The position numbers and the translations under genes were made by a program. A stretch of DNA of 45,638 nt from Clostridia bacterium (GTDB lineage: Bacteria > Bacillota > Clostridia > Oscillospirales > CAG-272): contig JAFVQW010000039.1 of assembly GCA_017504605.1 (NCBI GenBank), forward strand, positions 1 to 45,638. Direction: 5' to 3'. Below, piece by piece: positions 2,759-45,638 of this stretch (the stretch's first letter is position 1; each line of letters starts with the position of its first letter). The notes beneath the pieces are model-generated. The model was not told the origin of the DNA and made no database searches. It saw only the letters and a list, made by a program, of their open reading frames with translations.

Positions 2759-3598
2759 ATGGATTTTACCCGTCTTAACCCCGTCGTCCGCTCTGCCGGT
2801 ATCTTTGAGAGTGTCGGCTGCGGCGAGGAGCGAATTGCATACGATGCGAGAATTATATACGTGGTATCGGGAGACCTGACGGCGAGCGTCGGCTCGGAGA
2901 AGCTCGGGCATCTCGGCCCCGGGCATATGCTCTATATCCCCTCGGGTGTGCCGTATAAGCTTCGCGGGCAGTATTTTCGCGTGGCGGCTCTGTCCTTCGA
3001 CCTCACGGGCGAGAGCCCCGAGCCGAGCGAGCGTATGGCACCCGTCGCCACGGCTCTTTTCGACCCCTCGCTTTTGCACCCGACGGCGGAGCACGCCCCC
3101 TTTGACAAATATATACACCTGCCCGATATGGAGAGCGAGCGCGAAGGCCTGCTCGAGATGTGCGACGTCTTTACGAGCGCTGTCGGCGAGTACCGCGCAC
3201 GCGTGTCGGCTATGTTAAAGCTCTTGCTGATTAAGCTCGCCGAGCTCGCAGACGAAAACGCTCTCCCCGCCAGAATGATAGAGGCGCTCGACGCATATAT
3301 CCGCGAGAACGTCGGCGAGGAGATTTCAAATACCGAAATCGGCGCGATTTTCGGCTATCACCCCTTCTACGTCAGCCGCGTTCTCAAGGAGAGCCGCGGG
3401 CAGACCCTGCGCCAATATATAATTTCCTACCGCCTTGGCCTTGCTAAGAATATGCTCCGCTATACCGCGAAGAGCGTCGGCGAGATCGCCGAGGAGTGCG
3501 GCTTTACCGATGCCTCTTATTTCACGAAGACCTTCAAGAGCGCCCTCGGCGTAACGCCTAAGGAATACCGAAATTCTTTTAAGGACGATTTCATTTAA
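2759..3598 (+). CDS. AraC-family transcriptional regulator
   Basis: This is a 279-residue regulator. Residues 1-~100 form an AraC-type N-terminal cupin (LGHLGPGHMLYIPSGVPYKL). The last ~100 residues carry the two AraC helix-turn-helix units (SNTEIGAIFGYHPFYVSRVL and GEIAEECGFTDASYFTKTFK, then the usual TPKEYR). The start follows an AAGGGAG site. The stop codon overlaps the start of rlmD by one base (TAATG), so the two are translationally coupled. That is an odd pairing of a regulator with an rRNA methylase, and the target genes cannot be told from the sequence. Composition matches the GC-rich core genome, unlike the AraC gene at 1263. Confidence 0.9.
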   Translation: MDFTRLNPVVRSAGIFESVGCGEERIAYDARIIYVVSGDLTASVGSEKLGHLGPGHMLYIPSGVPYKLRGQYFRVAALSFDLTGESPEPSERMAPVATALFDPSLLHPTAEHAPFDKYIHLPDMESEREGLLEMCDVFTSAVGEYRARVSAMLKLLLIKLAELADENALPARMIEALDAYIRENVGEEISNTEIGAIFGYHPFYVSRVLKESRGQTLRQYIISYRLGLAKNMLRYTAKSVGEIAEECGFTDASYFTKTFKSALGVTPKEYRNSFKDDFI

Positions 3599-4974
3599 TG
3601 AAAAAGAACGACATATACACTGTAGAGATTACAGATATGACAAATCTCGGCTTCGGCGTTGCGAAGATTGACGGGCTCGTCGTCTTCGTCAGCGGCGCCG
3701 TTACGGGCGACGTCGCCGAGGTGAAGATTATAAAGCTGCAATCGAGCTTCGCCGTTGCAAGACTGCTCTCGATTGTGAAGAGGAGCACTCTCAGACTTCC
3801 CGAGGGAGAGGAGCGCTGCACGGTGCCGCACTGCACGAGCTGCGCCTACCGCGCTATGACGTATGAGGCGGAGCTTGCCGAGAAATCGGGCACCGTCCGC
3901 GCGGCGTTTGCTAAGGAGGGCTTATCGCATATAGATATTCTCCCCATAATCCCCTCGCCGAAGCTCGCTCACTACAGAAACAAGGCACAGTACCCCGTAT
4001 CACAGCTTAGCGAGGGCGAGTACGTTATCGGCTTCTATAAGCCGAAGTCGCACACCGTGTGCGAGGCGGCGAGCTGCCCCGCGGCGCCCGCCGTCTTCTC
4101 GGACATAATCGAAGAGATACGCCGTCACCTCGTACGCTATAATATCCCCGCATATAACGAGGCCACGGGCGAGGGCCTTATCAGACATATATATCTGCGC
4201 CGCGGCGAGGTCAGTCGGGAAATTCTGCTCACCCTCGTTCTCACCCGCCGCACTCTCCCCCACTCGGACGAGCTCTGTGCAGGCCTCACCCGCCTCTTCC
4301 CCGATGTTAAGGGAATACTTATAAACGTGAACGACCGTGCGACGAACGTCGTTCTCGGAGACGAATATATCACGCTATGGGGCAGAGATTATATTTTCGA
4401 CACGCTCGCGGGTGTGAGGCTTAAGCTCACCGCCCCCTCGTTCTATCAGGTGAACCACGGCGCCGCCGAACTTCTCTATAAAAAGGCGCGCGAGCTCGCC
4501 GCTCTCTCGGCGGGAGACACGCTCCTCGACCTCTACTCGGGTGTCGGCTCGATAGGCCTTTCTATGGCCGAGGACCTCGGCGAGCTTATCGGTGTCGAGA
4601 TTGTTCCCTCCGCCGTCGAGTGCGCGAGGGAGAACGCCGAGGCAAACGAAATTCAAAGCGCACGCTTTTTCGTCGGCGATGCCGCAGTAACCGAGCGCCT
4701 GCTCGACGGAGCGGAGCGCGCCCTCGGCAGAAAAATCGAGCCCGACGTTATCGTTGTCGACCCGCCGCGTGCGGGCTGTGACGAGCGACTGCTCCGCTTT
4801 ATAGCCGAGCGCGCTCCGCAAAGAATTGTTTACATTTCCTGCAACCCCTCGACCCTCGCCCGAGACGTGCGAGTTTTAGAGAGCCTCTCCTACACCGCCG
4901 GCGGCGTGACTCCCGTGGATTTGTTCCCGGGGACAGGGCACGTTGAAACTATTGTTTGTCTTCGCAAACAATAG
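3598..4974 (+). CDS. rlmD: 23S rRNA (uracil-5-)-methyltransferase, RlmD/RumA family
   Basis: This 458-residue enzyme is predicted to methylate C5 of a uridine in 23S rRNA using S-adenosylmethionine. Residues 1-60 are a TRAM RNA-binding domain. Cys74, Cys79 and Cys82 (C-x4-C-x2-C), with a fourth Cys in VCEAASCPAAP, fit the iron-sulfur site of this family. The SAM motif is DLYSGVGSIGLSMA, and the catalytic part is VVDPPRAGCDE followed by YISCNPSTLARDV with the nucleophilic Cys. The exact target (U747 or U1939 type) cannot be assigned by eye, so the product could also be called RlmCD. The last 11 codons and the stop lie in a 17-bp hairpin. Confidence 0.9.
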   Translation: MKKNDIYTVEITDMTNLGFGVAKIDGLVVFVSGAVTGDVAEVKIIKLQSSFAVARLLSIVKRSTLRLPEGEERCTVPHCTSCAYRAMTYEAELAEKSGTVRAAFAKEGLSHIDILPIIPSPKLAHYRNKAQYPVSQLSEGEYVIGFYKPKSHTVCEAASCPAAPAVFSDIIEEIRRHLVRYNIPAYNEATGEGLIRHIYLRRGEVSREILLTLVLTRRTLPHSDELCAGLTRLFPDVKGILINVNDRATNVVLGDEYITLWGRDYIFDTLAGVRLKLTAPSFYQVNHGAAELLYKKARELAALSAGDTLLDLYSGVGSIGLSMAEDLGELIGVEIVPSAVECARENAEANEIQSARFFVGDAAVTERLLDGAERALGRKIEPDVIVVDPPRAGCDERLLRFIAERAPQRIVYISCNPSTLARDVRVLESLSYTAGGVTPVDLFPGTGHVETIVCLRKQ

Positions 4975-4981
4975 TTTCAAC
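4942..4981 (+). terminator. 17-bp hairpin over the rlmD stop codon
   Basis: GTTGAAACTATTGTTTG (4942-4958) and its exact complement (4965-4981) flank the loop TCTTCG. The stop codon TAG at 4972-4974 is in the 3' arm. No T run follows, so it may act in mRNA stability or as a Rho-like or DNA-level site rather than as a standard terminator. It directly abuts the palindrome array that starts at 4982. Confidence 0.6.
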
Positions 4982-5179
4982 AACTAAGTTTGCCCTTACG
5001 GGCAAGTGAAGTTGCCTTCGGCAGTGAAGTTCACTGCGTGAGTGAAGTTTCGCCTAGCGGCGAAGTGGGGCAAACTTAACTTCACTTTGCGAGTGGAGCG
5101 AGCAAAACTTCACTGTAAGGAAATTTGCAGAGCAAATTGACGAATAACTTCACTACGAGCGAGAGCGAGTAACTTCACC
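4982..5179. repeat. Palindrome array A (solo AGTGAAGTT / AACTTCACT array)
   Basis: Three AGTGAAGTT units (5005, 5023, 5041) are followed by four inverted AACTTCACT-type units (5078, 5106, 5146, 5171). Most spacers are themselves small palindromes, such as TTGCCC-TTAC-GGGCAA, TGCC-TTC-GGCA, TTCGCC-TAGC-GGCGAA and AATTTGC-AGA-GCAAATT. The array begins with ACTAAGTTTGCCC and switches orientation at GCAAACTTAACTTCACT. Both features are shared with the arrays in the elements at 19,549 and 22,942. The conserved core and ends of those larger elements are absent here. No ORF is present. It fills the gap between rlmD and the next gene. Confidence 0.85.
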
Positions 5180-5202
5180 AAACACTAAGAAGGAGAACTC
5201 CT

Positions 5203-8253: not shown

Positions 8254-9159
8254 ATGGAAGAACAGAACCAAACCCCTCGGCGCGGGAAGGTCTTTTTAGG
8301 GGATTTTCTCGCGGGCTTTGCCATGGGAATTGCGTTTATTATTCCCGGCTTCTCGGGCGGCTCGGTTGCCGCTATACTCGGCGTGTATGAGAAGCTCGTC
8401 GGGGCAGTCGCCGATATATTCAGGAGCTTTAAGAAAAGCGTTGTTACTCTTATTCCCATAGCGCTCGGCCTCGTTCTCGGTGCGGTGTCACTTCTCTTCC
8501 CTCTCGGCGCGGCTCTCGAGGCCTTCCCTCTCCCGACGGTCTCGCTTTTCGTCGGACTCGCCATAGGCGGAGTTCCCTCGATAACCGACAGGGTGCCGGG
8601 GAAGCCGAGTGCTAAGAATATTACGGCACTGCTTATCCCCGCATTTTTAGCCCTCGCTCTCTCCTTCCTTCCCGTCTCGGCCGAGCGTGACCTGTTCTCG
8701 CTCTCGCCGTTTGGCTACCTCGTGCTCTTTTTGGTCGGGCTCCTCGGCTCGACGGCGCTCGTCGTGCCCGGCATTTCGGGCAGTATGCTGCTTCTCATAT
8801 TAGGCTATTACAACCCTCTTATTAAGGCCTTTACCGAGCATCTTTTGCTCGGGCGCGATATTTTAAAATCCCTGCTTGTCCTCGGCAGCTGTGCTCTCGG
8901 TATTGCGGTAGGATTTTTCCTGATTTCGATAATTATGCGCCGCCTTCTCGAGCGCTATCCGCGCTCGACCTATTACGCCATCGTCGGCTTCGTCGTCGGC
9001 TCCCTCCCCACCGTGTATATCTCTACGGCTAAGGATGCGGGCCTCACGCTCGCATCGCTCCCCCCGTCGGCGTGGCACTGGATAGCCTGCGCTCTTCTTC
9101 TCGCCCTCGGCGTACTTCTCTCTCTTTCCTTCACCCGCCTCGCAAAAAAGAAAAAATAA
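8254..9159 (+). CDS. popT: DUF368 family protein, predicted undecaprenyl phosphate translocase (PopT)
   Basis: This 301-residue polytopic membrane protein has about eight hydrophobic segments. It carries the paired family signatures IPGFSGGSVAAILGVYE near the N terminus and VVPGISGSMLLLILGYYNPL in the second half, which mark the inverted repeat of DUF368. DUF368 proteins were shown to return the lipid carrier C55-P across the membrane for wall synthesis (PopT). Assignment here is by family. AAGGAG precedes the ATG. It is the last gene of the HAD-GNAT-PHP cluster. No clear terminator follows before 9,241. Confidence 0.88.
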   Translation: MEEQNQTPRRGKVFLGDFLAGFAMGIAFIIPGFSGGSVAAILGVYEKLVGAVADIFRSFKKSVVTLIPIALGLVLGAVSLLFPLGAALEAFPLPTVSLFVGLAIGGVPSITDRVPGKPSAKNITALLIPAFLALALSFLPVSAERDLFSLSPFGYLVLFLVGLLGSTALVVPGISGSMLLLILGYYNPLIKAFTEHLLLGRDILKSLLVLGSCALGIAVGFFLISIIMRRLLERYPRSTYYAIVGFVVGSLPTVYISTAKDAGLTLASLPPSAWHWIACALLLALGVLLSLSFTRLAKKKK

Positions 9160-9240
9160 AATCCCCCCGCCCCTCATAAGCGCGCCCCGCGCCGAATATA
9201 CTTGAACAAACGGCAGAATTAAAATATACAGGGGGAAAAT

Positions 9241-9729
9241 ATGTTCGTTTGTTCGGTAAGAGCGTCCACCCTCAAGTTTTTTGCGCTTATCGCGGTGACG
9301 CTTGCTATTCTTATCACCGTCCTCGCCGTAGGTGAGGGCGACGCGGTCTTTGCCTCGGCCAACGGGGTAGAAATCAATTACGGTAATATAAAGACAAAGG
9401 AAGACAGGATAGCCTTTATAGAGGGCTTCGGCCTTCGGGTTGATGCGGGCTCGGAGACCGAGGAGGCATTCGCCATGCCCGAGAGCCTCGACCGAGTGCT
9501 CCTCGGCTACAACGAGCTGCAAAGGTCGCAGGGGCTCGACATCTCGAAATACCTGAGAAAGAAGGTAACCCACTACTCCTACCGCGTAACGAATTACGAG
9601 GCGGAGGGCGAGGTGTTCGTCAATCTTCTTGTTTACAAGAGCAGGATTATCGCCTGCGACATATCATCGGCCGAGAGCTCGGGCTTCGTGCTACCCTTGA
9701 CCGAGATAGATAAGACAAAAATAAAATAA
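9241..9729 (+). CDS. DUF4830 domain protein with N-terminal membrane anchor
   Basis: This is a 162-residue protein. Residues ~10-30 form a signal or anchor segment (LKFFALIAVTLAILITVLAV). The rest is extracytoplasmic and matches the DUF4830 pattern as I know it: FIEGFGLRVD, then an acidic stretch, PESLDRVLLGYNELQRSQGL, DISKYLRKK and NLLVYKSRIIACDI. The family is common in Clostridia and uncharacterised. The start follows AGGGGGA. A strong terminator follows the stop. Confidence 0.8.
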   Translation: MFVCSVRASTLKFFALIAVTLAILITVLAVGEGDAVFASANGVEINYGNIKTKEDRIAFIEGFGLRVDAGSETEEAFAMPESLDRVLLGYNELQRSQGLDISKYLRKKVTHYSYRVTNYEAEGEVFVNLLVYKSRIIACDISSAESSGFVLPLTEIDKTKIK

Positions 9730-9731
9730 AA

Positions 9732-9765
9732 AACGCGCTTGGGAATAACCCCAAGCGCGTTTTAT
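9732..9765 (+). terminator. Intrinsic terminator after the DUF4830 gene (bidirectional)
   Basis: AACGCGCTTGGG and CCCAAGCGCGTTTT flank a short loop, followed by TTTATTT. The A run before it makes it usable for the small minus-strand gene at 9771-9869 as well. Confidence 0.85.
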
Positions 9766-9770
9766 TTGCA

Positions 9771-9869
9771 TTAACCGTTGCAGCAGCAACAGAAAACAAC
9801 GATGATTGCAAGGATGATAATCCAGGTGCAGTTATCGTCAAAAATGTGGCATAAGCAGTTGTTGTTCAT
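9771..9869 (-). CDS. Very small cysteine-rich membrane peptide (32 residues)
   Basis: The ATG at 9867-9869 is preceded by a near-ideal GGAGGA site (9873-9878) and the frame closes with TAA at 9771-9773. The peptide starts MNNNCLCHIF, has a hydrophobic helix (WIIILAIIVVF) and ends CCCCNG. Short peptides of this design, with an Asn/Cys head, one membrane helix and a terminal Cys run, recur in Clostridia, where I recall labels such as chorion class high-cysteine protein; no function is established. Seven Cys in 32 residues is extreme. The shared terminator at 9732-9765 closes it. Confidence 0.7.
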   Translation of the reverse strand: MNNNCLCHIFDDNCTWIIILAIIVVFCCCCNG

Positions 9870-9963
9870 ATGTTCCTCCGAAGATTTTACTTGGCGGTCA
9901 GGACCCGCTCACTACATACTATGCAAAATCGGGGGAGAAGGTTAAAAGGCCTGCCGAGGTTAC

Positions 9964-12069
9964 CTAATCAAAATCAAACACAACCTCACCGTCGGCTATT
10001 TTGAGGCGGGCGCCGAACGGCTTTCCTTTTTTTGATATGAAGCCGTTAATTTTCGCGGTCTTACCCTCGGCAAGAAGACGGCGTGCCTCGCTAATCGGTA
10101 TATCGCGGCGGCATATCTGCACGCCCACCGTAAATTTACAGCCCTCGGTGTAGCCCATACAGCCGTATTTGTAGCGACCTCTGACGACGTTCCTCGCGCA
10201 GAGCGGACACTTGCCGACAATCTCGCCGAGCGTGCCCGTATTCACGGGCGGGGGTGCCGCGGGAGCCGATTTGAATATCTCGGCAATTTCACTCTCGGCA
10301 AGCTTCACGCTCTCGTCGACCGTCATCTCGCCGCGGAAAACCCTCTTCAGGGCGCGGCCGAGCTCGCTCGTCTTGTATTTATCCATAGCTATACCGAGCC
10401 GCCCGATGGATTCAATCAGAAATTCGCCGCCGTCAAGTATGGTATACACGTCCTTTTTAAGGTCGATATATCCGCTCTTTTTAGCGTTGTCGATAATACC
10501 CGTCCTCGTGGCCTCGGTGCCGAGCTCGAGTCCCTCAAAAATCGCACGGTAGTCGTCGGCATCGTCAACGACACCGCTCTGCTCGAGCTCCTTTGCCCGA
10601 GCCTTATCGTCCTTGAAGGGATTTTTCAGGTATTTATTAAGCGTTTCAATTGTGTAATGCCTCGGGGGCGTCGTCTGCTTCTCTCTCGGGGCGAAGTCGA
10701 TATTTACCTCGTCTCCGACCGAAAGCGTCGGTAGAATTTTATCCTTACCCGAGTAGTCGTCGTACCTCGTCCAGCCGGGCTCGCGGATTATAGTTCCCTT
10801 TAGGGAAAATTCCTCGTATTCTCCGACCTTCACCTTGATTTCGCTCTTCTCCGCTACGCACTCCTCGGAGCAGAATACCGCGACGAAGCGGCGAAAAACC
10901 GTCGAATAAACCTCACTCTCCTCCCTTGAGAGCTTATCCTTAGCGGGTATTTTATAGGTCGGGGTCAGAGCCGAGTGCGACTCAATCTTTGAGTCGTCAA
11001 ATATATATTTCGAGTCACGAAAGCGCACGGGATAGCCCATTTTCGATATATTCGCAAGGATTGCGCGTATCTTATCCTTCTCGGCCGTGGCAAGATACTC
11101 GGAGTTCGTTCTCGGATAGGTAAGATATCCGTCCTCGTAGAGCTTCTGTATAATGCGAAGACTGTCCGACATCGACATCTTGTACTTCTTACCGAGCACG
11201 TTCTGAAGCGTTGAGAGTGAGTAGAGCTTGCCCGGCAGAATTGCCTCGCGCTTGCTCTCGCACAGCGTAACGACGGCTCCCGCCTCGTTGTATTTTTTAG
11301 CGAGCTCCGCGGCCGCCTCGAGCTCATCTTTTGCAAACCTTTGTTTACTTGTCAGCTCAATTTTCTGCCCGTCGGTTTCAGCATCGCTCGAAAGAGCATA
11401 ATATATCTCGGGCTTGAAATTGCGTATTTCCATATCGCGCTCGTAAATTGCGCGCACAATAGGCACTATTACTCTGCCGACGCGGAGTAGCTTTCCCGTC
11501 TTGATAGTGGCATAGCGTGTAAGATTAACGCCGTATAGCCAGTCGATATAGGTGCGGGCATAGCCCTCACCCGCGAGGTTGTCGTACTCGCTCTCGTCCT
11601 TCATCTCCGACAGAGCCCTCTTAACCGTCTCGGGTGTCTGGTCGGGGAGCCAGAGGCGCTTCTTCGCCTTCTCTGTCGCAAGTGCATTCTCGATACAAAG
11701 ACGCACTATTATCTCTCCCTCTCGGTCGGCGTCTCCCGCGTTTACGACGGTATCGACGTCGGGACGGTTGCAGAGTGTCTTGATTATCTCAAACTGACGG
11801 CGCACACCGGGGTCTACCCCACGCTTATCATCGGTGCGGCGAAGCTCGAAGCGGAATTTCTCGGGGAAGCAGGGCAAATTATCAAGCGTCCATCTCGTCT
11901 CGCTCCCGTCTCCGTAGGCCTCTACGTCAACGAGCGAGAACAAATGTCCGAAGACCCAGGTGACGATATATCCGTCGTTTATAAAATATCCGTCGCGCTT
12001 ATCCATCTTACCTATTCCCGCGACGATATTGCGCGCGAGGCTCGGCTTCTCGGCTATGATAAGAACCAT
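9964..12069 (-). CDS. topB: DNA topoisomerase III (type IA)
   Basis: This 701-residue enzyme passes single strands through a transient 5'-phosphotyrosine break and decatenates or relaxes negatively supercoiled DNA. The TOPRIM domain starts at MVLIIAEKPSLA and holds the metal-binding DADREGE at 113-119. The catalytic Tyr is Tyr318 in YLTYPRTNSEY. A C-terminal zinc-finger-like unit (KCPLCARNV, YGCMGYTEGCKF) and a second repeat end the protein. Length is normal for TopB. GGGGGGAG precedes the ATG. It is a stand-alone gene on the minus strand, with no conjugative genes nearby, so it looks chromosomal rather than part of an integrative element. Confidence 0.95.
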   Translation of the reverse strand: MVLIIAEKPSLARNIVAGIGKMDKRDGYFINDGYIVTWVFGHLFSLVDVEAYGDGSETRWTLDNLPCFPEKFRFELRRTDDKRGVDPGVRRQFEIIKTLCNRPDVDTVVNAGDADREGEIIVRLCIENALATEKAKKRLWLPDQTPETVKRALSEMKDESEYDNLAGEGYARTYIDWLYGVNLTRYATIKTGKLLRVGRVIVPIVRAIYERDMEIRNFKPEIYYALSSDAETDGQKIELTSKQRFAKDELEAAAELAKKYNEAGAVVTLCESKREAILPGKLYSLSTLQNVLGKKYKMSMSDSLRIIQKLYEDGYLTYPRTNSEYLATAEKDKIRAILANISKMGYPVRFRDSKYIFDDSKIESHSALTPTYKIPAKDKLSREESEVYSTVFRRFVAVFCSEECVAEKSEIKVKVGEYEEFSLKGTIIREPGWTRYDDYSGKDKILPTLSVGDEVNIDFAPREKQTTPPRHYTIETLNKYLKNPFKDDKARAKELEQSGVVDDADDYRAIFEGLELGTEATRTGIIDNAKKSGYIDLKKDVYTILDGGEFLIESIGRLGIAMDKYKTSELGRALKRVFRGEMTVDESVKLAESEIAEIFKSAPAAPPPVNTGTLGEIVGKCPLCARNVVRGRYKYGCMGYTEGCKFTVGVQICRRDIPISEARRLLAEGKTAKINGFISKKGKPFGARLKIADGEVVFDFD

Positions 12070-12268
12070 TTTTCTCCCCCCTTCATTTTCTTCACAACTG
12101 TTATTTTAACATATTCTCTGGTAATTTTCCACCCTATTTTTCAAAAAAACGAATATTCGTCCCTTTGCACAACCTTTTTCTATCTGCTCTGTGGCCTCGG
12201 GCGTAGTATTCTTGCCAGAGGAGCGCCGAATTTTTGCTTCGTTAATATATTAACTTAAGACATTCCTA

Positions 12269-12297
12269 TTGATTTTACGCGCAAAATGTGGTAGAAT
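12269..12297 (+). promoter_or_regulatory. Sigma-A promoter of the atp operon
   Basis: TTGATT (12269-12274) and TAGAAT (12292-12297) are 17 bp apart. The start point near 12,304 gives a short leader ahead of the GTG at 12,330. The sequence 12,070-12,268 between this promoter and topB shows no gene. Confidence 0.75.
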
Positions 12298-12329
12298 ATT
12301 TATCGGTTATACGCCGCAGGAGGTGTAGC

Positions 12330-12659
12330 GTGTATAAAAAATGGCTCGGAGCACTGTACTCCTTAAACATAATCTTTCAATCCTTCTTCTCGCTCGTCTT
12401 CCCCGCGGGGCTCGCCCTCGGTATAGCCTATCTCTCGGTCACGCACCTCGGTGCGCCGAGGTGGCTGTATGCACCGCTTATTACCGTCGGTGTCGGCGCG
12501 GGACTTGTATCGATGGTGCGCTTCATCATTACCTCTATGAACGCTCTGTCCCGTCTCGAAAGCGAGCAGGCGGAGGCCGACAGAGAGCGACGCGAGGCAA
12601 AAAGAAAGGACGAGCAGCGGCGCGCTGAATTTAAAGAAAACGGAGATGCTGATATATGA
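12330..12659 (+). CDS. atpZ: AtpZ-like small membrane protein of the ATP synthase operon
   Basis: This 109-residue protein has two hydrophobic segments (residues ~10-35 and ~45-70) and a highly charged tail (RLESEQAEADRERREAK). Size, topology and position first in the atp operon fit AtpZ/F0F1-ATPase subunit proteins, which with AtpI have been linked to ion uptake and rotor-ring assembly. The start is GTG at 12,330, chosen because AGGAGGTG lies 5 nt upstream. The in-frame ATG at 12,288 overlaps the promoter. The stop overlaps the next gene by 4 nt (ATGA). Confidence 0.75.
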   Translation: MYKKWLGALYSLNIIFQSFFSLVFPAGLALGIAYLSVTHLGAPRWLYAPLITVGVGAGLVSMVRFIITSMNALSRLESEQAEADRERREAKRKDEQRRAEFKENGDADI

Positions 12660-19145: not shown

Positions 19146-19547
19146 ATGAATAAGTTTCGCTTACAGATAGTTACCCCCGACGGCATTGAATACGACGGCG
19201 AGGCCGAGAGCCTTCTCGTCCACACCGTCACGGGAGATATGGAGATACTCGCGGGACATATGGAGATGGCGGCGGCCGTCGGCACGGGCAGAGTCAGAAT
19301 TCTCACGGGCGAGGGCAAGCTCTTCGCCTCGGCGAGCGGTGGCTTTCTCACCGTGTCGCGTGGGGAGGTTAAGCTCGTGTGCGTGACCTTCGAGCTTCGC
19401 GAGGATATCGACCTTGCACGCGCGGAGGCCTCTCGCCTGCGTGCGGAGGAAAAAATCAAAAATGCGAAGGACGACAGAGCACTCGCCGCGGCCAAGGCCA
19501 AGCTCGCGAGAGCGATAAACCGCATTAAAGTAGCAGAAATGAAATAA
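19146..19547 (+). CDS. atpC: F0F1 ATP synthase subunit epsilon
   Basis: This 133-residue subunit has an N-terminal beta sandwich (LQIVTPDGIEYDGEAESL, then TGDMEILAGH) and a C-terminal helical hairpin of alternating Arg, Ala and Glu (AEASRLRAEEKIKNAKDDRA). It couples gamma to the c-ring and can inhibit ATP hydrolysis. It is the last gene of the operon. Its stop is followed within 2 bp by the left arm of the split terminator element at 19,549. Confidence 0.93.
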   Translation: MNKFRLQIVTPDGIEYDGEAESLLVHTVTGDMEILAGHMEMAAAVGTGRVRILTGEGKLFASASGGFLTVSRGEVKLVCVTFELREDIDLARAEASRLRAEEKIKNAKDDRALAAAKAKLARAINRIKVAEMK

Positions 19548-19548
19548 T

Positions 19549-19948
19549 AAAGTGCCCGTATCGATAGCGTGGTATCCTTAGCGGAGAATTTAAAAAACAA
19601 CTATAAGTGCGAGCATCGCATTTGACTGGTCAAATGCTTTATGGGCTAAGCCCAAGCCCCTATTACAAACAGAAAGAGCAAACACGCAAAGGGGAAAAAC
19701 CTTATGTGTCTGCTCTTTTTTCTGTCAGTGAAGTTTTTGCTGTCGCAAAAGTGAAGTTGTGTGATACACAGTGAAGTTGCTCGCGGGGGGCTCGCAGTGA
19801 AGTTAAGTTTGCCCTCACTTCGCCGTCAGGCGAAACTTCACTCACATAGTGAACTTCACTATCGAAGGTAACTTCACTTGCCCGCAGGGCAAACTTAGTT
19901 AGCGTGAATGCTCCGTTAAGAGCATCACGCTATTGATGCGGGCGCTTT
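19549..19948. mobile_element. Terminator-splitting palindromic element B
   Basis: The two ends are 38-bp inverted repeats (19549-19586 and 19911-19948) with 8 mismatches, 6 of which become G-U pairs in RNA read on the plus strand. The right arm runs directly into a T run, so together they form the atp terminator with about 320 nt in its loop. Inside are a core (19587-19670) with the 20-nt palindrome at 19618-19637 and GGGCTAAGCCC, a hairpin of arms 19671-19685 / 19706-19723, and a palindrome array with four AGTGAAGTT units (19727, 19750, 19770, 19796) and three AACTTCACT units (19834, 19852, 19870). No ORF. The same element lies inverted at 22,942. Mobility is inferred. Confidence 0.7.
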
Positions 19949-19952
19949 TTTT
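19911..19952 (+). terminator. T-run half of the split atp operon terminator
   Basis: The arm CTCCGTTAAGAGCATCACG... ends in GGGCGC followed by seven Ts. Its partner arm is 325 nt upstream at 19549-19586, beyond the inserted element, so termination would need long-range pairing. Confidence 0.6.
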
Positions 19953-20015: not shown

Positions 20016-21275
20016 ATGTATTACGGATATAAGATAAGCGACTATACGGCAAAGCTCGCGGAGCGTGCCGAGTGTGACTGCCGCGAGGTTTTTCGGAAAA
20101 TAGACGAGAATGCTCTTCTCTGCTCCTCTAAGGTGCTATCGGCATTTCAGGAGTGCCGCGTATCGACGAGCGACTTTATAGAGGTTACGGGCTACGGCTT
20201 CACCGACTCGGGAAGAGACAAGCTCGAGGAGGTTTACGCCCGCGTTTTCGGTGCCGAGGACGCGCTCGTCAGGCCTCAGCTTATGTCGGGCACCCACGCC
20301 CTCTACGTCACCCTCGGCGGGCTTTTAAAGCACGGCGAGACCCTCGTCTACGTCTCGGGCGAGCCCTACGACACGCTGAAGAGCGTTATCGGCACTGCGG
20401 GCAATAGCCGCAATTCGCTTATAAAGAACGGAATTAAATACGAGGAAATCGACCTTATCGGAAACGACTTCAACCTCGAGGCTATAAGAGAGCGCCTCTC
20501 GCGCGGCGACGTTCGCGTGGCGGCTATACAGCGCAGCCGCGGCTACTCCTCGCGTAAGAGCCTCACGATAGACAAGATTGCAGAGGCTATACGGGTTATT
20601 AAGGAGGTCTCCCCGAACACCGTCGTTATGGTCGATAACTGCTACGGCGAGTTCACCGAGGACCGCGAGCCGACCGAGGTCGGCGCAGACGTGTTCGTCG
20701 GCTCGATGATGAAGAACCTCGGCGCGGGCCACGCGGTGAGCGGCGGCTACTGCGTAGGACGGCGCGAGGTTATCGAGGATATTGCCGAGCGGCTTACCTC
20801 GCCCTGCATAGGCAAGGACCTCGGCGCGAACTTCAATCAGCTTGCCTCCTTCTTTAAGGGTCTCTTTATGTCACCCGGGGCGGTCGCGGCAACGCTTAAG
20901 TCAATGGCCTTCGCGGCGCGCCTTCTCACCCTCGCGGGCTACGGCGACGTTGACCCCGCCTTCGACGAGGTGCGCACCGACATAGTACAGACCGTGAACT
21001 TCCACTCGGCCGAGAAGCTGATAAAGTTCTGTAAGGGTATTCAGATGGGCTCGCCCGTCGAGGCGTACTGTATCCCCGAGCCCGGAGATATGCCGGGCTA
21101 CGAGCACCCCGAGATTATGGCGGCGGGCACCTTCGTCACGGGCGCTACGAACGAGCTCTCCTGCGACGGCCCCGTATGCGAGCCCTACACCGCGTATATG
21201 CAGGGCGGGCTTACCTACGAGTACGGCAAGCTCGGCGTTATGCGCGCGCTCGACGTTATGCTCGATTTGGGTTAA
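20016..21275 (+). CDS. Methionine gamma-lyase family PLP enzyme (YnbB / aluminium-resistance family)
   Basis: This is a 419-residue fold-type I pyridoxal-phosphate protein. It matches the Met_gamma_lyase family often labelled aluminium resistance protein: SDFIEVTGYGFTDSGRDKLE, RPQLMSGTHAL, YDTLKSVIG, MVDNCYGEF (Asp pairing with PLP nitrogen) and SMMKNLGAGHAVSGGYCVG, where the Lys should bind PLP. The true reaction in this family is poorly defined; cleavage of Met or another sulfur amino acid is the family-level guess. GGAG precedes the ATG. The thiamine pyrophosphokinase gene follows 30 bp later, probably on the same transcript. Confidence 0.88.
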   Translation: MYYGYKISDYTAKLAERAECDCREVFRKIDENALLCSSKVLSAFQECRVSTSDFIEVTGYGFTDSGRDKLEEVYARVFGAEDALVRPQLMSGTHALYVTLGGLLKHGETLVYVSGEPYDTLKSVIGTAGNSRNSLIKNGIKYEEIDLIGNDFNLEAIRERLSRGDVRVAAIQRSRGYSSRKSLTIDKIAEAIRVIKEVSPNTVVMVDNCYGEFTEDREPTEVGADVFVGSMMKNLGAGHAVSGGYCVGRREVIEDIAERLTSPCIGKDLGANFNQLASFFKGLFMSPGAVAATLKSMAFAARLLTLAGYGDVDPAFDEVRTDIVQTVNFHSAEKLIKFCKGIQMGSPVEAYCIPEPGDMPGYEHPEIMAAGTFVTGATNELSCDGPVCEPYTAYMQGGLTYEYGKLGVMRALDVMLDLG

Positions 21276-21967: not shown

Positions 21968-22052
21968 AATACACGTCAGGGGTGCCCTGTGGCTGAGATG
22001 GCTTTTGCCGAACCCTTTAACCTGATACGGATAATGCCGGCGTAGGGAGATT
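21968..22052 (+). promoter_or_regulatory. TPP riboswitch (THI element)
   Basis: The conserved aptamer parts are visible: CAGGGGTGCCC, then CTGAGATGG, ACCCTTTAACCTGAT, GGATAATGCCGGCGTAGGGA. These match the thiamine pyrophosphate aptamer. A terminator hairpin follows before thiT, so TPP binding should stop transcription. The expression platform is transcriptional. Confidence 0.96.
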
Positions 22053-22073
22053 TGTTTTTCACTTAAAAATCGT

Positions 22074-22941: not shown

Positions 22942-23374
22942 AACAGAGCTTCCGTATGCGTGTTATCCTTAACGGAGAACACGCATAACTAAGTTTGCCC
23001 AAGTGGGCAAGTGAAGTTTACCGCGTGAACCCCCAAAATACACGCTGTGTCTTTCGGGGAACCCCTATGTAAGTGAAGTTATCCTGCGGATAGTGAAGTT
23101 TTGCCTTCGGCAAAGCATAGCAAACTTAACTTCACTTGTGCGTAGCACAAACTTCACTGCAACGCAACTTCACTTTCGCGTCAGCGAAAACTTCACAAAG
23201 AGAAAAGAGAGGACATTACGGAATTCCACCGTTTTTGTTCTCTCTTTCTACTTGTAATAAGGGTTTGAGCTTAGCCCATATCAGCATTTGACCGGTCAAG
23301 TGCGATGCTTGCACTTTTGCCAAAGTGTAAATTCTCCGCTAAGAGCATCACCCTTATGGGAAGCTCTGTTTTTT
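22942..23374. mobile_element. Terminator-splitting palindromic element C (core inverted relative to B)
   Basis: End arms at 22942-22977 and 23334-23371 share a perfect outer ACAGAGCTTCC and the inner ends TATCCTTARCGGAG / ATGCTCTTARCGGAG also found in element B. Flanking A and T runs make a bidirectional terminator between convergent genes. Reading the minus strand from 23,334 leftward gives AATTTA, AAGCATCGCA, the 20-nt palindrome (23284-23303), ATGGGCTAAGC, TATTACAA and a hairpin (23205-23215 / 23236-23246), in the same order as element B. The array has three AGTGAAGTT units (23010, 23072, 23092) and four AACTTCACT-type units (23128, 23150, 23166, 23189). No ORF. Mobility is inferred. Confidence 0.7.
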
Positions 23375-45395: not shown

Positions 45396-45638
45396 TTATA
45401 CGTTGTAGAACTCTACAAGCTTCTTAAGTCTCTCGTACTTAGCCTTTGCGGTTGCCTCAGCCTTCGGGGAGAGCTCCTTTGCTCTCTCGGGTAGCGTAGC
45501 GGCGCGAGGGTATTGAATGACAGTCCGGTGGACTGTCAGACCCCGAGCGTGACCGAGCCCGCAGGCGAGTAGCGTAGCGGCGCGAGGGTATTGAATGACA
45601 GTCCGGTGGACTGTCAGACCCCGAGCGTGACCGAGCCC
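45396..45638 (-). CDS. C-terminal part of a protein (possibly pyruvate:ferredoxin oxidoreductase) with an in-frame repeat insertion
   Basis: The frame is open from the window edge to TAA at 45396-45398 (80 codons). The last ~31 residues, from PERAKELSPKAE through KAKYERLKKLVEFYNV, resemble the C-terminal helix of pyruvate:ferredoxin oxidoreductases (weak, by eye). Everything before that is encoded by two copies of a 78-bp repeat, each adding 26 residues (GLGHARGLTVHRTVIQYPRA, then ATLLAC) without a stop. A strong terminator follows. Whether the protein is functional with this insert, or is a broken gene, cannot be told because the rest is outside the window. Confidence 0.55.
   Translation of the reverse strand, partial: GLGHARGLTVHRTVIQYPRAATLLACGLGHARGLTVHRTVIQYPRAATLPERAKELSPKAEATAKAKYERLKKLVEFYNV
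45491..45638. repeat. 78-bp tandem palindromic repeat (one full and one partial copy)
   Basis: The unit starts GTAGCGTAGCGGCGCGAGGG at 45,491 and again at 45,569, identical over all 70 bp visible of the second copy. Each unit contains the palindrome TGACAGTCC-GGT-GGACTGTCA. Its length is a multiple of three and the minus-strand frame stays open through it. The array runs off the window edge, so copy number is unknown. Confidence 0.9.

Follow-up and report, generated by a model that had tools for sequence, protein, structure and literature searches.

Introduction

Tn4451-type integrative mobilizable elements are moved by the large serine recombinases (LSRs) TnpX/TndX, which, in the available portion of PMC5704250, are described as having low target specificity and recombining between 2-bp identical sequences. 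A multi-targeting LSR clade, in which 63% carry DUF4368, includes Cp36, whose target motif consists of an A-rich stretch, an AA core and a T-rich stretch in the accessible text of PMC10083194, while the core is called non-conserved in that of PMC13137831. For one solved serine integrase, the part of PMC3783163 available describes a 25-bp attP half-site and a preference for thymidines at attB positions 17-19. Short, gene-less elements are represented among MITEs by BrickBuilt of P. gingivalis, a MITE with a minisatellite, which has inverted repeats and an internal repeat array (available text of PMC4596501), and likewise by the Tn3-derived TIMEs. Gut-1 was described in 2010 as a probable ncRNA known solely from human gut samples (PMC2864571, accessible portion).

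Two related repeats, B and C, lie in a 45,638-nucleotide stretch of a Clostridia bacterium genome (the window, meaning the whole stretch of DNA that was analysed). Both are very probably non-autonomous, MITE-like elements of an LSR transposon family, mobilised in trans and using intrinsic terminators as landing sites. An earlier note on this DNA had offered either a noncoding RNA of about 400 nt or part of a non-autonomous element moved by single-strand chemistry; the first reading is too wide, and the second was right in kind and probably wrong in chemistry.

Anatomy and genomic context of elements B and C

Copies share one layout, running from a left end, GGGTGATGTTCTTAGCGGAGAATTT, through a conserved module with small hairpins and a terminator-like hairpin with its T-run, to an array of short units (AGTGAAGTT in this window) with little palindromes between them, and then to a right end, CTCCGTTAAGGATAACACGC, that doubles as the 3' side of a hairpin (Table 1). 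B and C are 74-91% alike in ungapped blocks. B has as neighbours an ATP-synthase-epsilon-like gene that ends at 19547, which we take to be atpC because it follows the beta-subunit gene, and a methionine gamma-lyase-like gene (at 20016; by Pfam). C is flanked by genes for a thiamine transporter and for an exonuclease-domain protein.

Without mismatch, TTGACYGGTCAA occurs in the window at 19622-19633 and 23288-23299 only, and ATGGGCTAAGC at 19641-19651 and 23269-23279 only. The shared core motifs quoted in the earlier note are present as given, on the + strand at 19587-19716 and as the reverse complement roughly at 23195-23335, and the hairpin that it described does pair in both copies (19675-19685 with 19706-19716, z -5.6, in B; z -3.2 in C). 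The arms quoted for C are a + strand reading, and in element orientation they are AAGAGAGAACA / TGTCCTCTCTT. The extent assigned to the core, 19587..19723, is too narrow, its motifs being the left third of a unit that spans 19567-19930.

Other repeats and structures are present in the same stretch. Nested in the array of C, at window 23020-23067, is a further palindromic repeat, GTGAACCCCCAAA...GGGGAACCCCT, which also occurs within the 5' module of other copies (L014, L065, L108, L113 and L337). An ordinary TPP riboswitch lies at window 21968-22065, upstream of the thiamine transporter gene and after a thiamin pyrophosphokinase gene. At the contig end (window 45488-45638) lies a pair of 73-nt direct repeats, nearly identical to each other, which include the inverted repeat TGACAGTCC/GGACTGTCA.

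Table 1. Positions in the window of the elements, their parts and the host terminators around them
Feature	Position	Strand	Remarks
Third AGTGAAGTT array, without either family end	4930-5180 (array 4981..5180)	+	Gut-1 match inside
5' arm of the intrinsic terminator of the host atp operon, interrupted by B	19549..19562	+	AAAGTGCCCGTATC pairs, including G-T pairs, with 19935-19948
Left 2-bp direct repeat AT of B	19564..19565	+	Positions -3,-2
Element B, whole, 364 bp	19567..19930	+	Ends GCGTGGTATCCTTAGCGGAG ... CTCCGTTAAGAGCATCACGC
B left end, predicted half attachment site	19567..19586	+	Family consensus GGGTGATGTTCTTAGCGGAG
B 20-nt palindromic hairpin GCATTTGACTGGTCAAATGC	19618..19637	+	Helix 1 of covariation alignment
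B small GGGCTAAGCCC hairpin	19642..19654	+	Helix 2; conserved, no two-sided changes
B intrinsic-terminator-like hairpin and T-run	19675..19721	+	Helix 3; arms covary
B array of AGTGAAGTT / AACTTCACT units with small palindromes between	19727..19900	+	Related to Gut-1 match at 4981-5053
B right-end hairpin	19901..19930	+	Stem varies among copies, pairing kept; CCGTTAAG core retained
Right 2-bp direct repeat AT of B	19932..19933	+	Positions +2,+3
3' arm and T-run of host terminator split by B	19935..19952	+	Pairs with 5' arm
3' arm of host terminator around C, T-run beyond	22942..22953	-	GGAAGCTCTGTT with AACAGAGCTTCC at 23359-23370
2-bp direct repeat TA, right of C	22955..22956	-	Same dinucleotide at 23355..23356
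Element C, whole, 396 bp	22958..23353	-	Ends GGGTGATGCTCTTAGCGGAG ... CTCCGTTAAGGATAACACGC
2-bp direct repeat TA, left of C	23355..23356	-	Same dinucleotide at 22955..22956
5' arm of host terminator around C	23359..23370	-	Pairs with 22942..22953

A dispersed family with varied arrays

The genome of origin (1.74 Mb, 83% complete) holds 19 matches to B, B included, and the 23-nt left-end pattern, with up to two mismatches, has 84 sites in 23 of the 36 genus genomes, that genome included, against none for the reversed control; the repeat pointed out in the earlier note is thus real, far beyond chance. A BLAST-type search with one whole copy gives matches in 34 of 59 genomes, again with the genome of origin among them. 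Of 197 genomes sampled across the order, 16, the own genome among them, contain the exact right-end pattern; they are spread over 11 families, and the pattern is in none of 12 sampled genomes from other genera of the same family. A scan of named genomes yielded at least 117 stretches. Among the 80 matches listed, titles read Clostridia, Clostridiales, Oscillospiraceae, Ruminococcus and, once, just bacterium; where the matches listed had a titled source, it was the hindgut of goats, sheep, deer, cattle or buffalo. A phage or plasmid origin gained no support: one whole copy gave no match there, and the patterns were absent from IMG/VR.

Distinct insertions number 82, B and C both included, and measure 194-504 bp (median 361 bp). 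They are short, without coding capacity, and bounded by terminal inverted repeats carrying CTCCGYTAAG, as is usual for MITEs, and 2-bp direct target repeats stand at both ends in 73 of the 82. The earlier note was right in proposing a mobile element that is non-coding and non-autonomous and has a structured part. Copies L342 and L365 are 98.4% identical over 365 bp with different flanks, in records titled Oscillospiraceae and Ruminococcus; such near-identity in differently titled hosts suggests recent movement, if the titles are right.

The unit types of the array vary between the same ends, e.g. CGATATG, ATGAAATC, ATGAATTG, GTGATATT and GTTATGA (L018, L045, L054, L088 and L208). In the composite elements of L197 and L324 a right-end hairpin stands at each outer end, and the arrays between them are of two different kinds.

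Rfam family RF01706 (Gut-1) matches above its gathering cut-off at window 4981-5053 (51.7 bits) and in L045 (54.7 bits), matches below it in L013 and L088, and does not reach it in B or C. The Gut-1 matches lie in arrays of the mobile family, a location that may be compatible with transcription of Gut-1. The absence of any known family implied by the earlier note accordingly gives way where Gut-1 matches part of the array type and otherwise holds. The third array in the window is bounded on its left by another perfect hairpin (TTGAAACTATTGTTTG / CAAACAATAGTTTCAA) in place of the usual right-end hairpin.

Insertion into intrinsic terminators

Most copies occupy the loops of intrinsic terminators. 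A 2-bp direct repeat (positions -3,-2 equal to +2,+3) flanks 73 of the 82 insertions, against a mean of 32.7 and a best of 46 in 2000 shuffles and 25 for the next best offset; the 9 insertions without it are counted as misses. Its types are AA (46), TA (15), AT (8), TT (3) and AC (1). Outside these cores, 65 of 82 insertions have flanking arms that pair with each other, where 300 shuffles give 6.7 on average and 14.0 at best; the arm sequences differ between copies. An A-run lies to the left in 68 of 82 and a T-run to the right in 68 of 82, the reverse controls giving 2 and 1; by position, A makes up 80-87% between -16 and -18, and T makes up 76-80% between +16 and +18 (90 rows including double readings, 82 of them distinct). 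Targets have little in common beyond these A/T tracts, which makes an IS110/IS1111 element, with its DEDD transposase and a guide RNA complementary to a fixed target, an unpromising comparison. One or the other run is present in 16 of the 17 insertions without pairing arms, and the tracts, not the pairing of the arms, may be the recognised feature.

Gene context was read from the 56 of 82 sites with enough flank. At 54 of these an open frame of at least 100 codons reads in from at least one side, and no orientation bias relative to the upstream gene is found (such frames enter from both sides at 32 sites, from the left alone at 11, from the right alone at 11 and from neither side at 2), the count being of such open frames and not of proven genes. 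A gene-order comparison shows atpC in genome G035 followed by the same downstream gene as at B, with the hairpin terminator between them uninterrupted. None of 16 orthologues examined by eye (24 other genomes have a match) carries an element within 220 nt 3' of the atpC stop. No empty site was found at the DNA level, the relatives being too distant, with 81% for the downstream gene as the highest value.

In 30 of 34 copies of the ACTTAG type the interior arm beside the right end matches the junction (2000 shuffles: mean 16.0, best 25), which is not what simple target duplication would produce; no such match is seen in other array types, which have varied cores with a constant interior.

The right-end hairpin (about 27-33 nt) is also seen alone in terminator loops (L163, L165, L178, L182, L189, L190, L194, L210, L219 and L220), where its stem is continuous with the terminator arms and very long hairpins result. 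Flank pairing of at least 10 is found for 8 of 120 solo right-end hairpins. Their flanks are complementary, not repeated, and do not follow the 2-bp rule.

The same ends on larger elements and beside a serine recombinase

Larger elements share these ends and carry other cargo. L407 holds a 3.1-kb element (8576-11670; core AA on both sides, arms pairing) with an 814-aa ORF that has a secretion-signal-like start and no Pfam match. L319 holds one of 1.2 kb (2834-4062, core AA) with two ORFs identified by eye, one for a small kinase-like ATPase and one that is endonuclease-like, and L409 one of 0.9 kb (11435-12393, reverse-complemented) with a HIT-domain protein, a core TT read by hand and arms that pair poorly. 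In genome G093 the right end on contig C32 is the commonest right end among mini-elements, CTCCGTTAAGGATAACACGC. The terminator arm AATAAAAAGCGCCGCGC flanks this end on C32 and a left-type end on C34, with core AA on both sides (by hand), the pattern that a single element of 11 kb or more would show if the assembly had broken it in two; since it is spread over two contigs, that element would be whole only by this reconstruction. A 2-bp identical core at both junctions, as in LSR elements, is thus found for the family and, by hand, also in G093, L407 and L409.

The last gene of the G093 element encodes a large serine recombinase, P0002, with Resolvase, Recombinase, Zn_ribbon_recom and DUF4368 domains, and its best PDB match is the catalytic part of TnpX. 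In P0002 and two close relatives (97 and 80% identity), in three genomes and at three different sites, AATTCTCCGYTAAGAACATCACGG begins 49-50 nt past the recombinase stop; the L449 version, AATTCTCCGTTAAGAACACAACGG, is two or three letters off. Read in reverse, this recombinase-side sequence corresponds to the mini-elements' left end: 22 nt of the L448 end are identical to the complement of the consensus left end, and the complement of the B left end matches the recombinase-proximal end of L447/L448. At the L448 flank a terminator is not clear. The match of the ends to those of serine recombinase elements, at three LSR loci, makes such an enzyme the probable mover.

Beside 20 other recombinase matches (23 matches in 50 genomes; at most 43% identity) the mini-element ends are absent. 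Within the genus, LSR matches occur in 29 of 69 genomes, near full length at no more than 43% identity and as two short pieces at 51-59%, and the loci examined (30 of 70 matches) lack the ends bar one match in L431 with 3 mismatches, taken as chance. The genome of origin (83% complete) has no match to a P0002-type recombinase, so the copies may be relics or may rely on one lost or missed. B and C, at 364 and 396 bp, are too short for an LSR gene and are thus possible satellites, not members, of the LSR elements.

Terminal inverted repeats of about 20 bp and a 2-bp A/T-rich duplication would equally suit a MITE of a DDE-type transposase whose ends the serine recombinase elements share or have captured, and the cores do vary freely in several array types. 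Such an origin is improbable, however: no transposase-bearing version was noticed between the ends among the sites and ORF lists read, the end-adjacent gene is an LSR in the query and in both close relatives, and the A-run/T-run target suits the multi-targeting LSR clade.

Covariation and folding

Covariation was assessed on 66 copies over three named helices, with the structure taken from copy B. C, which scored too low for the list of 69 five-prime modules, was added by hand, and four of the 69, namely L007, L169, L177 and the second of the L310 copies, were excluded. Across the three helices 90.9% of the cells are paired. Cells changed on both sides number 111, against 37.6 +/- 4.3 in shuffles and at most 25 with slid partners. 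The structure came from copy B, so that the slid control favours it, and the rows are related to each other. Two coarser measures are not above shuffles: 9 pairs show two-sided change (7.5 shuffled, reached by 90 of 500 shuffles; slid versions 3-6), and further pair types number 28 (26.7 shuffled, reached by 154 of 500; slid versions 11-19). The paired changes described in the earlier note hence stand at the level of cell counts and not by the coarser measures.

The terminator-like hairpin holds 101 of the 111 two-sided cells, at 6 of its 11 pairs (e.g. A-U 28, U-A 21, G-C 11 at one of them). In the 20-nt palindrome a single clear swap is seen, with A-U replaced by U-A in 7 of 66 copies; the GGGC hairpin and the first small hairpin show no two-sided change. 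With nearly all such changes in one hairpin and none in the small ones, the folded RNA of about 400 nt proposed in the earlier note is not demonstrated. The alignment suggests that selection has likely acted on the terminator-like hairpin.

That covarying hairpin, fold energies lower than those of shuffles and the description of Gut-1 as a likely ncRNA (in the accessible text) could also belong to a functional structured RNA or terminator family in which Gut-1 and the 5' module would act as an sRNA and which would owe its spread to ordinary descent instead of mobility. Descent of this kind is very unlikely, given unique flanks with 2-bp repeats, split terminators, a patchy spread (11 families against 0 of 12 sampled other-genus genomes of the own family), 98.4% identical copies in differently named hosts and other cargo between the same ends.

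A REP/RAYT-like or IS200/IS605-like single-strand element, for which the palindromic right-end hairpin with its variable but paired stem and solo occurrence in terminator loops might speak, has next to no likelihood, since the two ends are inverted repeats and the insertions carry a 2-bp repeat. Y1_Tnp is present in 9 of 36 genus genomes and absent from the own genome. The 11 Y1 loci have no good end match (three are weak, with up to 4 mismatches, in L222, L227 and L229), no Y1 partner stands beside the repeats, and a Y1/HUH partner was rejected. The single-strand (Y1/HUH) chemistry of the earlier note is accordingly left unsupported.

A model for mobilisation

Under the LSR reading, a recombinase of the DUF4368 kind would bind each end as half of a dyad-symmetric site, through the motif CTCCGYTAAG located 13-22 bp from the crossover. 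In the copies CTCCGTTAAG stands at 13-22 from the centre of the 2-bp core, which falls inside the 25-bp attP half-site in the available part of PMC3783163. The enzyme would be provided by a larger relative, and the two ends would be joined in a circle. Through recombination at the 2-bp A/T core this circle would then enter a target flanked on opposite sides, each at a distance of about 14 bp, by an A-run and a T-run. Intrinsic terminators fit this A-run/T-run pattern, of which they are common natural instances, so that insertions would come to lie between genes, in terminator loops. The element's own terminator-like hairpin near the left end is predicted to limit damage and may restore termination. 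Classical serine integrases keep a fixed core, and the variable core for that reason counts against an LSR, though for Cp36 the core is described as non-conserved in PMC13137831 and given as AA in PMC10083194.

Beyond B and C, a cassette system is conceivable, though somewhat short of an even chance, in which one recombinase clade would move both gene-less mini-elements and single-gene passengers with the same two ends, terminators would be safe landing sites, and each mini-element would bring a replacement terminator. Passengers with shared ends comprise the HIT protein, the kinase-like ATPase and the large secreted-looking protein.

If the LSR reading is true, multicopy MITE-like satellites of LSRs exist, and multi-targeting recombinases, which serve as genome-engineering tools, naturally use terminators as landing sites across the genome. 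It would also give the orphan Gut-1 RNA a carrier and provide 82 natural targets from which recombinase specificity is readable. In the literature searched, mostly outside subscription journals and partly in excerpt, neither MITE-like satellites of LSRs nor terminators as LSR targets were found.

Comparison with described systems

With the Tn4451 type the family shares an associated LSR whose best PDB match is TnpX. B and C differ from these elements in being about 0.4 kb long, gene-less and multicopy, and in lying in intrinsic terminators with A/T cores.

The likeness to the DUF4368 clade rests on the DUF4368 domain of the LSR found here and on the Cp36 target, A-rich 5', with an A/T core, and T-rich 3', in the available portions of PMC10083194 and PMC13137831; Cp36 is thus likened through clade membership and target motif. 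In contrast, terminators as natural targets and gene-less derivatives go unmentioned in the accessible text of these papers, and the word 'terminator' has no occurrence in that of PMC13137831.

Gut-1 is listed as an ncRNA, whereas here it is part of mobile-element arrays. BrickBuilt and TIMEs derive from the IS5 or Tn3 families, whereas the ends described here match an element of a serine-integrase-type recombinase.
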